Below the pieces are notes generated by a model that was not told the DNA's origin, did not search any database, and saw only the letters and a program-made list of their open reading frames with translations. The position numbers and the translations under genes are program-made. Below, piece after piece: positions 11,085 through 13,719 of a DNA stretch of 35,952 bases. The stretch lies in assembly GCA_012719345.1 (NCBI GenBank), contig JAAYAN010000218.1, positions 1-35,952 of the forward strand, given 5' to 3'. The DNA comes from Ignavibacteria bacterium (GTDB lineage Bacteria > Bacteroidota > Ignavibacteria > Ignavibacteriales > Melioribacteraceae). The stretch's first letter is position 1; the number at the start of each line of letters is the position of its first letter.

Positions 11085-12491
11085 TTACTTCCCTAATTGA
11101 ATTAATAAAACAATAACAGTTGCAACGCCGCCGACAATTTGGGCTATGTTGCCGATACGGTTCAGATAAAAATCGAAATTACGAACAGGTTCTTTAGGTA
11201 TCCAGATAAAATCTCCGGGCTCTATATCAAGCTGCTTGTCTTCTTCAATCTGTATCCAGGTACGGGTTTTACCCTTAATAAGGTACATTTCTTCTTTTGC
11301 AGTTTCACCTATTCCGCCGGCTTTAGCTAAGTAATAATTATAATCGGCATTTTTAGAATATTCGACATAACCCGGCGTAACAACCTGCCCGAACACATAA
11401 ACCATATTTAACTTTTCAGGTATGTTAATATAATCGCCGTTTTTTACAATAAATTTGCTATCCTCGGAACTTTCATCAAGCACTTTTTCAAATTCAATTA
11501 TACCATTGCCGCGTGCAAACCTTAACTGGTTATCAATTTTAAAATAGGCAGAGTCCTCATCAATCAACTCAGCCATTCGTGTCATCATCAACTCTTCAAA
11601 TTCCTGACTAAAATAAAGCGAACCAAAAACATTTGTCCCGCGCACAAGTTCAGCGCGGTTCAGGTCGGCATTATCTTTAAACCCGCCGGCTTTACGGATA
11701 ACTTCAGCAATTGTCGTGTTTTCTTTGGTTATATATATTATGCCGGGACTGTTCACTTCCCCGTCAATTTGTACATAATAATTTTTCCTGTTCGATTCAT
11801 TGGCAAGAATTCTTACTCTATCGCCTCTTTTAAGAAGGAAATCATCGGCTATCTTTACAATCAGCTTTTCTTCTTTATTTCCGTCGTAGCTTAAGCGGGA
11901 AATTTCTGCTTCGGTTATATCCTCGTAAGCCTGGTTTATTCCGCCGCCAAAAAGAATTGCATCCGAAAGTTTATCGCCTTCAACAAACTGAAACTTAACA
12001 GAAGTTAATTCCACACTCTCTTTTCTTTTGCGAAAGTTTATTGCTCCGGATATTTCAATGAAATTCCTTGAATTATCCAATTGCGGGAAGATTATAACAT
12101 CATTGTTTTTTAGATAAGGGTTATTTGCAAAGTCGCCGGTAAGTCTGAATTTTGCGAGGTCAATTTTAATTTCCGTACCGTCAAATCTTCGTAAAGTTAT
12201 ATCTCTTTCAGGATAAGCCAATTCTTCCAAACCTTTCAAATCCTGAGTTGCAGTTAACTGAGCAATTTTGATTTCGTTGTACATTCTGGTAACAAGCTGG
12301 TCAACTCTTTCAGTAGCCGATGCATGGAAACTGCCTGTTACAGGGAAATTTCCGCCGACAGTAACACTGATAATATTTAATGCCATCATATCGGAAGAAG
12401 AAGAGCTGCCGGAGCGGTCGCCGAATTGGGCAAAGAGATTAAGATTAAGAATAAGATTAAGAATAAGAAAGGATAATAGTCTTTTTTTCAT
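11085..12491 (-). CDS. SLBB-domain polysaccharide export protein (outer-membrane, Wza-related)
   Basis: 468 aa. It begins with a signal peptide (cut near FAQ, residue about 22) and has no lipobox cysteine. SLBB-type modules are visible at about 43-130, about 243-300 (YVQIDGEVNSPGIIYITKEN, AGGFKDNADLNRAELVRG) and about 365-440 (VYVFGQVVTPGYVEYS, KAGGIGETA). A hydrophobic helix at about 447-466 ends the protein and could be the membrane-spanning helix. The canonical N-terminal Poly_export (PES) motif is not evident, so it is an atypical OPX protein. It is the first gene of the polysaccharide operon. Its GC-richer codons match the core genes, unlike the downstream polysaccharide genes. Confidence 0.85.
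   Translation of the reverse strand: MKKRLLSFLILNLILNLNLFAQFGDRSGSSSSSDMMALNIISVTVGGNFPVTGSFHASATERVDQLVTRMYNEIKIAQLTATQDLKGLEELAYPERDITLRRFDGTEIKIDLAKFRLTGDFANNPYLKNNDVIIFPQLDNSRNFIEISGAINFRKRKESVELTSVKFQFVEGDKLSDAILFGGGINQAYEDITEAEISRLSYDGNKEEKLIVKIADDFLLKRGDRVRILANESNRKNYYVQIDGEVNSPGIIYITKENTTIAEVIRKAGGFKDNADLNRAELVRGTNVFGSLYFSQEFEELMMTRMAELIDEDSAYFKIDNQLRFARGNGIIEFEKVLDESSEDSKFIVKNGDYINIPEKLNMVYVFGQVVTPGYVEYSKNADYNYYLAKAGGIGETAKEEMYLIKGKTRTWIQIEEDKQLDIEPGDFIWIPKEPVRNFDFYLNRIGNIAQIVGGVATVIVLLIQLGK
12435..12470 (-). repeat. hexanucleotide tandem repeat inside a signal-peptide coding region
   Basis: On the plus strand, positions 12437-12466 read GATTAA, GATTAA, GAATAA, GATTAA, GAATAA: five units of GAWTAA. 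Read as codons on the minus strand they encode the alternating Leu-Ile/Leu-Asn stretch of the SLBB protein signal peptide (LILNLILNLNL). Because the unit is 6 bp, copy-number change would add or remove dipeptides without shifting frame. Confidence 0.9.
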
Positions 12492-13091
12492 AGTTTACAA
12501 TAACTTTTTATTTTTTGTGTGTTAATTTAGTAAATTTTCTAAATCTAGTTGATCTTTTATTTTAAAGTATAACCACAAATTATCTTATCAAACCGTTGAA
12601 ACGGTTATTAATATTTAGTTTTACCACTTAACCAATGGTTTCTGACAGAGCCGGACAGGGAAACCATTGGTTACTTTGAACTTGGTTAATATTAAGCCGG
12701 AGATAAGTTGTTAAACCTCATAGTGAAAAAAAAACAATAGTTTATAAATAATTGTCCCGACTTTTAAGTCGGGTTTAAAATATATAAAATGAAAAAGCAG
12801 GGTTTTAACCCCCAAAAAAGATACCTTTGGACTAAAGTCCATGAAATAAACTGTATTATTTAACCGCGAGATAAATCTCGCGGCAATTTAGTAAAAACAT
12901 TCCTTAAGTTGACTCTTATTGTCAAAGTCGGACAAGTTAAAGGGGACTTTCTTACTGCTAATACATTACCAGATTTTAGTTTCCTCTTTCAAAAATAATC
13001 TTTTGCCGTAAAACCTTCCCAAAAATACCACTTCTGCCTAACATTACCTTCTTGCTTTAACTAAACCCTATAGATTAAAATTATATTTTAT
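12492..13091. other. 600-bp non-coding spacer between the polysaccharide operon and the HepT/MntA pair
   Basis: No credible gene is present. The first about 100 bp upstream of the SLBB gene should contain the operon promoter, but I cannot pick out a convincing -35/-10 pair. A cluster of palindromes fills 12591-12883 (described separately). The remaining about 200 bp (12890-13091) is AT-rich and shows no repeat, hairpin or ORF that I can defend. Confidence 0.7.
12591..12883. repeat. cluster of six different short palindromes
   Basis: In order: AACCGTT-GA-AACGGTT (12591-12606); a 12-bp inverted repeat AACCAATGGTTT / AAACCATTGGTT (12630-12641 and 12661-12672, 19-nt loop); CCCGACTT-TT-AAGTCGGG (12756-12773); GGGTT-TT-AACCC (12800-12811); TGGACT-AA-AGTCCA (12828-12841); CCGCGAGAT-AA-ATCTCGCGG (12864-12883). 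All stems are perfect, five have a 2-nt A/T/G spacer, and the sequences are unrelated to each other. They resemble dispersed REP-like palindromes mobilised in other genomes by REP-associated transposases. None is followed by a T-tract of terminator quality. Confidence 0.85.
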
Positions 13092-13427
13092 CTATTCTTT
13101 ATTCAAAATACTTTCTACTTGTTTTTTAAGTTCGGGTAATTTATTCACAATAACATCCCAAAGTAATTCATAGTCAACATTAAAATAATGATGAATAATC
13201 TTATCTCGCATTCCTGAAATTTTCTTCCATTCAATTTCCCGATGTGTTTTTCGGAATTCGGGAGTTAAATTTTTAACAGCTTCACCAATAATCTCCAGAC
13301 TTCGGGAGAATGCTCTTGTGTACATCTCATTTTCAATAAAAGAATTATAATCAAGTTTTTCTGAGGTCTTTGATAAAAATATTATTTCATCAAGTATATG
13401 TTTTAAATAAACCTCGTTAAGCTTCAT
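13092..13427 (-). CDS. hepT: HepT-type toxin, RNase domain (DUF86)
   Basis: 111 aa, all-alpha HEPN-type protein. It has the catalytic signature R-x4-H-x-Y at Arg74, His79 and Tyr81 (RDKIIHHY) characteristic of HepT toxins. In the studied HepT/MntA system HepT is an RNase, and the MntA partner silences it by adding AMP to the Tyr of this motif. It overlaps the 3' end of the nucleotidyltransferase gene by 11 bp, so the antitoxin is translated first and the two are coupled. Function is by family. The RNase residues look intact. Confidence 0.9.
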   Translation of the reverse strand: MKLNEVYLKHILDEIIFLSKTSEKLDYNSFIENEMYTRAFSRSLEIIGEAVKNLTPEFRKTHREIEWKKISGMRDKIIHHYFNVDYELLWDVIVNKLPELKKQVESILNKE

Positions 13428-13719
13428 ACCATCTCACTTCATTATTAATGTATGGAAGCATATAAGGGCTAATACCTTTTTCTGTTAGCAGATCAACTTT
13501 TCTATTAAATATCTTTTCTAATTCAAAAACAAGATTTATGAAGTTGTCAAATGACTTTTCCTCGAAATCTACCAGAAAATCAATATCACTTTTTTTGGTT
13601 TCTTCTTTTCTAATAAAAGAACCAAATAAGCCTATTTTCCTTACACTATATTTCTTAAGCAAATATTGGTTAGTTTGCAAAATCTCAAAAATATCATTTG
13701 ATGATAAATCTTTATTCAT
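13417..13719 (-). CDS. mntA: MntA-type minimal nucleotidyltransferase antitoxin
   Basis: 100 aa. Pol-beta nucleotidyltransferase core: GLFGSF (GSF at 33-35) followed by SDIDFLVDF with Asp45 and Asp47 as metal ligands, and Asp76 (KVDLL) as the likely third carboxylate. MntA proteins AMPylate the cognate HepT tyrosine and so act as the antitoxin. It is the first gene of the pair and has an AGG sequence about 8 nt upstream of its ATG. Not related to the neighbouring polysaccharide genes by function. The pair is a small accessory module. Confidence 0.9.
   Translation of the reverse strand: MNKDLSSNDIFEILQTNQYLLKKYSVRKIGLFGSFIRKEETKKSDIDFLVDFEEKSFDNFINLVFELEKIFNRKVDLLTEKGISPYMLPYINNEVRWYEA

Follow-up and report, generated by a model that had tools for sequence, protein, structure and literature searches.

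A four-hairpin, REPIN-like element, probably moved in trans by a TnpA_Y1 transposase, in an Ignavibacteria genome

Insertion sequences of the IS200/IS605 family, such as IS608, bear the hairpins of both ends on the same strand. The IS608 and REP enzymes are described, in the sections cited here, as binding a folded single-stranded hairpin and cutting where a foot or guide sequence sets the site (PMC8266576, PMC6006769). The latter source, in its relevant sections, defines REP sequences by a GT[AG]G foot and a class 2 transposase with the motif Y---NP; its Table 1 enters TnpA_Y1 subclass 1.2 as 'REP: no', and the subclass is said to have generally no terminal structures of the IS200 type (Quentin et al. 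2018, PMC6006769). In the TIRtrons (TIRYT), genes of the PF01797 type lie between inverted repeats that are in part self-complementary and in some cases belong to repeated families, according to the portion of Di Nocera et al. (2013, PMC3733652) drawn on here. A literature search that ran largely outside the subscription journals returned nothing linking subclass 1.2 to palindromes.

The locus described here lies in a window of 35,952 nucleotides, the whole stretch of DNA that was analysed, from an Ignavibacteria genome of 4.02 Mb in 323 contigs (G000). Six inverted repeats are all present between positions 12591 and 12883, within 293 bp. The cluster is bordered on one side by a Wzz-type gene and a minus-strand gene with SLBB domains (11085-12491), and on the other by a HepT-like gene and a nucleotidyltransferase gene in tandem (13092-13719); domain matches identify the latter two, which we take to be a probable HepT/MntA toxin-antitoxin pair. 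Palindromes were counted if they had a 2-nt loop, a stem of at least 5 bp and three or more G/C per arm. By this definition, five of the seven in the whole window fell in the cluster, while 690 of 702 other 293-bp intervals (step 50) held none and 12 held one. Dinucleotide shuffles of 12591-12883 gave a mean of 0.045 such palindromes, and 0 of 5000 reached five. The palindromes noted in a sequence-only reading of this DNA are thus real and clustered, although the largest stem is 14 bp, with a 17-nt loop, and not 12 bp as it gave. A sub-threshold Rfam match to MicC on the minus strand of 12500-13100 (E 0.28) was taken as chance.

Hairpins 3 to 6 are one four-hairpin element of about 140 nt, here called module B, which extends over 12750-12888 with the bounds AATTG...CAATT and the order long-short-short-long (L-S-S-L). 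The left long hairpin (hairpin 3, 12756-12773, plus strand) has 8 bp and a 2-nt TT loop, its ATTG foot at 12751-12754 being followed by a basal T.T mismatch at 12755/12774, and the left short hairpin (hairpin 4, 12800-12811, plus strand; GGGTT-TT-AACCC) has 5 bp and a 2-nt loop. The right short hairpin (hairpin 5, 12828-12841, minus strand; TGGACT-AA-AGTCCA) has 6 bp and a 2-nt loop that reads TT on the minus strand. The right long hairpin (hairpin 6, 12864-12883, minus strand; CCGCGAGAT-AA-ATCTCGCGG) has 9 bp and a 2-nt loop and is followed by CAAT, which places an ATTG foot on the minus strand. With loops TT, TT, AA and AA, module B is almost symmetric, and many of its copies therefore match on both strands. 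The description of all six palindromes as sequence-unrelated holds for their stems but misleads, because four of them are fixed parts of one repeated element.

A sequence search of the source genome with the cluster matched 12747-12905 to contig C32 (78%) and part of it to C1:12259 (67%). The genome contains eight full copies of module B (the window, C32, three on C1, C14, C139 and C164), with partial copies on C1 and C14. Copies frequently adjoin each other within a few hundred bases, as on C1 (L015) and C14 and in two related genomes, G034 (L185) and G029 (L188); such neighbours could reflect tandem growth or preferred insertion beside existing copies.

The hairpin stems of module B vary from copy to copy by compensatory changes. 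In the eight own-genome copies, which were collected with blastn and aligned with MAFFT without structure, 91.6% of cells were paired and both-side changes occurred in 9 of 30 pairs; neither value was matched in 500 shuffles, and pairing fell to 45.8% or less when the partners were slid by 1-3 columns. A second set of 16 gene-less copies, from three other genomes (G029, G034 and G036) and retrieved with a model from the own-genome copies that already had the structure built in, gave 95.4% paired cells and both-side changes in 16 of 28 pairs (0 of 500 shuffles matching; at most 43.8% with slid partners), the sequences in both sets, as in our other comparisons, not being independent by descent. 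The sequence-only reading had taken uniqueness of each palindrome in the genome as evidence against a REP-like origin. The stem of hairpin 6 is indeed without a second copy in the source genome even at 2 mismatches, so that a structure-aware search was needed, but as a refutation this uniqueness misleads because the stems change by compensatory substitution.

On contig C1, a gene for a 141-residue PF01797 protein (tnpA, C1:20987-21409) has a full L-S-S-L copy on each side; it sits between two complete copies and not within one. The closest named relatives of its product come from Ignavibacteriaceae MAGs, and the closest solved relative by sequence is 2a6m (E 1.7e-10).

Hairpins 1 and 2 are part of a second family, module A, which lies about 80 nt from module B in the window. 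Hairpin 1 (12591-12606; AACCGTT-GA-AACGGTT) is the short hairpin of this family, with 7 bp and a 2-nt loop, and hairpin 2 (12629-12673) is of the long type, with the perfect 14-bp stem and 17-nt loop mentioned above. Module A-type hairpins flank a tnpA on contig C123 (147 aa, PF01797), long and short on the left and short and long on the right (L-S-tnpA-S-L). Read as its reverse complement, hairpin 1 is identical to the left short hairpin next to this gene, and 12630-12673 shows 86% identity to a stretch upstream of it; the C123 copy of the long-loop hairpin ends 142 bases ahead of the PF01797 match. A long-type hairpin with GCCGGACAGG in its loop is seen both at 12629-12673 of the window and at L014 4566-4609, and is perhaps a fused or deleted hairpin pair.

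The C1 and C123 proteins both carry Y---Q--HH (YINNQEEHH and YISNQEEHH, respectively). The C1 protein has DHIH and WQ; the C123 protein has DHVH, and WA where WQ is expected. We examined all of the best 80 of 348 loci encoding relatives of the C1 protein (54-70% identity). Y---Q--HH was found in 75 of these relatives, the other five being two truncated translations and three variants in the last residues; WQ was found in 78 and DH[IV]H in 18, and DHCH was commonest (46). By the Y motif alone, with the other subclass motifs found in part, the linked transposases would be members of TnpA_Y1 subclass 1.2, of which the source genome then contains two proteins. They resemble this subclass, as the cited sections of its description present it, in being short PF01797 proteins (141 and 147 aa here) with Y---Q--HH. 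They depart from that account in three ways: the 80 relatives have DHCH more often than DH[IV]H, WQ is absent from the C123 protein, and hairpin arrays flank a branch of Y---Q--HH genes here.

Palindromes with a 2-nt loop and a stem of at least 6 bp are concentrated beside these 80 genes. At 50-100 nt from the gene their density is 7.75 per kb on the 5' side and 12.1 per kb on the 3' side, about 100 times that at 1-2 kb, where it is at shuffle level (0.07 and 0.06 per kb, respectively). The loops at 50-100 nt are mostly TT/TC on the 5' side (27, against 4 AA) and mostly AA/GA on the 3' side (42, against 6 TT/TC), which gives the order L-S-tnpA-S-L. A long-type hairpin with at most one mismatch lies within about 160-170 nt in 79 of the 80 loci. 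On the right, the nearest long hairpin shows an AA/GA loop in 64 loci and the opposite orientation (TT/TC) in 8. On the left, the loop of the nearest one is TT/TC in 31 loci and AA/GA, again the opposite orientation, in 9; no left long hairpin was found in 40. Both expected long hairpins occur in 23 of the 80 loci, and in 21 of these 23 the left and right stems differ.

Not every relative of the transposase has such arrays. Among 30 TnpA loci, our own two included, an 8-bp hairpin lies within 250 nt in 21; eight of the nine without one have at most 41% identity to the query and the ninth has 53%. TnpA relatives in a plasmid collection (165 records, all below 60% identity) provided controls, for which 8 of 40 listed loci were read. 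No hairpin arrays were present at these eight loci with more distant Y1 transposases; two of them have a single isolated 6-bp palindrome, 84 and 367 nt past the gene, and another has a palindrome within the gene. The Y motif was recovered by pattern in only four of the eight; the two with Y---Q--HH, from Bernardetia and Persicobacter and likewise more distant, had no such arrays.

The long hairpin of each end has about 9 bp, a closing T-A pair, a TT or TC loop and a 5'-AT[T/A]G foot, with a shorter inner hairpin beside it, and its loop and foot show that the two ends face opposite ways, as in a REPIN. Pooling 290 perfect long hairpins of 8-11 bp, chosen for a TT or TC loop, gives the profile T-n-A-A-T-[T/A]-G, followed by CC, by a pair that varies but is mostly C, by four more variable pairs and by the closing T-A (0.99); conservation stops 7-8 nt outside the stem. 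At the 80 loci, 24 of 31 long hairpins on the left and 49 of 64 on the right have ATTG or ATAG as their foot, and GTAG appears once among the left feet listed.

Mismatches in the long hairpins are strand-polar. Of the 294 long hairpins bearing the AT[T/A]G foot, 177 pair perfectly. The other 117 each have a single mismatch, which is T.T in 47, G.T in 29, A.C in 19, G.G and C.T in 8 each, A.G in 5, C.C in 1 and A.A in none. Foot-bearing T.T mismatches come from 21 of 80 named loci, but 40 of 45 cases belong to four recurrent hairpin types and are therefore not independent events; when the foot is not required, the contrast at the 80 loci is weaker (50 T.T against 5 A.A). The short hairpins of these loci showed no clear mismatch polarity. 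The polarity suggests that constraint on the long hairpin acts on the strand with the foot, which at one end is opposite to that at the other, unlike in IS608. A report on CG-rich 18-mers with T-T mismatches (PMC7709200, in the part cited here) may bear on the T.T preference.

Classical REP or REPIN sequences moved by a class 2 RAYT (TnpA_REP) would share with our element the foot-tetranucleotide hairpins, their inverted pairing, a flanking small HUH-Tyr transposase of PF01797 type and dispersed copies without a gene, and five further PF01797 matches in the source genome, several with palindromes nearby, speak for the same explanation. We nevertheless consider it improbable: both linked proteins and 75 of 80 relatives have the class 1 motif Y---Q--HH and not Y---NP, the foot is mostly AT[T/A]G and not GT[A/G]G, and each end has two hairpins whose stems change while staying paired. 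The sequence-only reading had proposed REP-like palindromes moved by RAYTs; the first half stands, since the copies are REP-like, dispersed and tied to small HUH transposases, and the second does not, as these lack the Y---NP of classical RAYTs. The published definition of a REP thus does not cover the element, but by analogy it appears REP-like in its working.

Other described systems match in part. IS200/IS605 elements (IS608, ISDra2) also have hairpin ends and include the closest solved relatives of the C1 TnpA, whereas here the long end hairpins are inverted and each end has two hairpins. TIRtrons have their own shared motif, GGGGWSAS, and the cited portion of their description gives no four-hairpin covarying element (PMC3733652). 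The closest likeness in architecture is to a MITE-like derivative, that is, the ends of a gene-bearing element without the gene: one related genome (G036) holds both an L-S-tnpA-S-L form (L181) and L-S-S-L copies, with differing stems, and C123 carries L-S-tnpA-S-L in the source genome.

We consider it very unlikely that the site is a recombination or insertion hot spot that gathered unrelated palindromes. The closeness of the two families in the window and the frequent adjoining of copies (C1, C14, G034) would fit, but a single element accounts for four of the six palindromes, and tandem duplication could also give side-by-side copies. The related proposal of a landing zone for several families is not supported, hairpins 3-6 being one element and hairpins 1-2 belonging to a second family.

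The element is also found outside the source genome. The model detects it in 21 of 38 relatives at E<=0.001, and TnpA at E<=1e-8 occurs in 17 of these 21 compared with 9 of the 17 other genomes, a partial overlap (own genome included in both counts). In a class-wide sample, 20 of 100 genomes have the element at E<=1e-5, again with our own included. The association is clearer in this sample: with the own genome left out, TnpA at E<=1e-30 is present in 12 of 19 element-bearing and 8 of 80 other genomes (p=3.6e-6, ignoring descent, at a cut picked after the table had been seen), and at E<=1e-20 in 15 of 19 and 33 of 80 (p=0.003, likewise ignoring descent); 7 and 4 of the 19 element-bearing genomes, respectively, are without TnpA at these cuts.

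Presence and absence could be compared between two genomes of the same genus, G024 and G026, at five G024 array sites. Three of the five are empty in G026, where the spacer between matching flanks measures 32, 33 and 60 nt instead of 181, 193 and 273 nt; these spacers have diverged, so that the element ends are approximate, and a global alignment of filled and empty site was poor in the spacer and was read by eye. The 181-nt site is a plain L-S-S-L copy, and the 193- and 273-nt sites are compound arrays (short-long ... long-short plus further hairpins). At the remaining two sites, G026 shows no clear empty site but longer unmatched spacers of 551 and 901 nt. A further 18 places in G024 match one plain L-S-S-L copy, mostly in part.

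Structured RNAs retained for a role in gene regulation, be they attenuators, terminators or processing sites, would also be expected to show strong compensatory change, but we regard this reading, together with the attenuator-like hairpins suggested earlier, as the least probable explanation and hardly credible, because each end points by its long-hairpin loops, feet and mismatches to one strand and the two ends to opposite strands, while no Rfam family scored above cut-off in 12500-13100, transposase genes have arrays on their flanks, and three arrays of G024 are absent at the matching spacers of a genome from the same genus (G026).

Considering the copies, their architecture, the compensatory stem changes, the transposase linkage, the mismatch polarity of the long hairpins and the three presence/absence sites, all observed directly, we conclude that the cluster is probably a full copy of a non-autonomous, REPIN-like element (module B), moved in trans by TnpA, beside part of a second family. 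The evidence is good for the element itself and for its link to the transposase. Gene-bearing forms carry a small HUH transposase between the two ends (L-S-tnpA-S-L). Module B and other forms without the gene resemble derivatives that arose by internal deletion and would be moved in trans. In the mechanism that we envisage by analogy with IS608 and the REP enzymes, each end would be bound by TnpA at its long hairpin, as single strand and on the foot strand, the inner short hairpin may offer a second contact, and the enzyme would then cut and join the ends with the foot as a guide for cleavage, as in IS608. The enzyme would recognise chiefly the shape and the foot, and not the sequence of the stem.

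More tentatively, and with rather less than even confidence, we propose that these repeats represent a class of mobile elements with shape-recognised ends, in which four hairpins keep a set length, loop and foot while their stems drift by compensation, and which may supply TnpA_Y1 subclass 1.2 with the substrate that it was missing, spread without a gene through many genomes of Ignavibacteria, Bacteroidetes and their kin. If the ends are read by shape, compensatory drift of the stems would make copies look unrelated in sequence, and two different hairpins per end together with differing end stems would keep each hairpin folding on itself and not pairing across the element. The element is a likely substrate for a transposase subclass that was described without one. 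We suggest that the repeats were missed since structure is kept more than sequence and the GTAG foot sought in REP searches is lacking. Recognition of hairpins by shape and foot alone thereby becomes testable for a HUH transposase, and covariance models offer a route to other hidden palindromic elements.

At three G024 sites (L224:13376, L225:10072 and L202:9945), an extra 8-bp hairpin of the type AGCCCTCC lies about 30-40 nt outside a long hairpin, and in this genome it is at times found between two head-to-head long hairpins. This hairpin may represent an additional subsite or else a repeat of its own. The five further PF01797 matches in the source genome are at C78:25046, C66:13989, C267:3289, C304:10884 and C56:133, one of them below cut-off. 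Several have their own distinct palindromes nearby, for example those near C78 and C304, and the source genome therefore seems to hold several transposase-repeat pairs.
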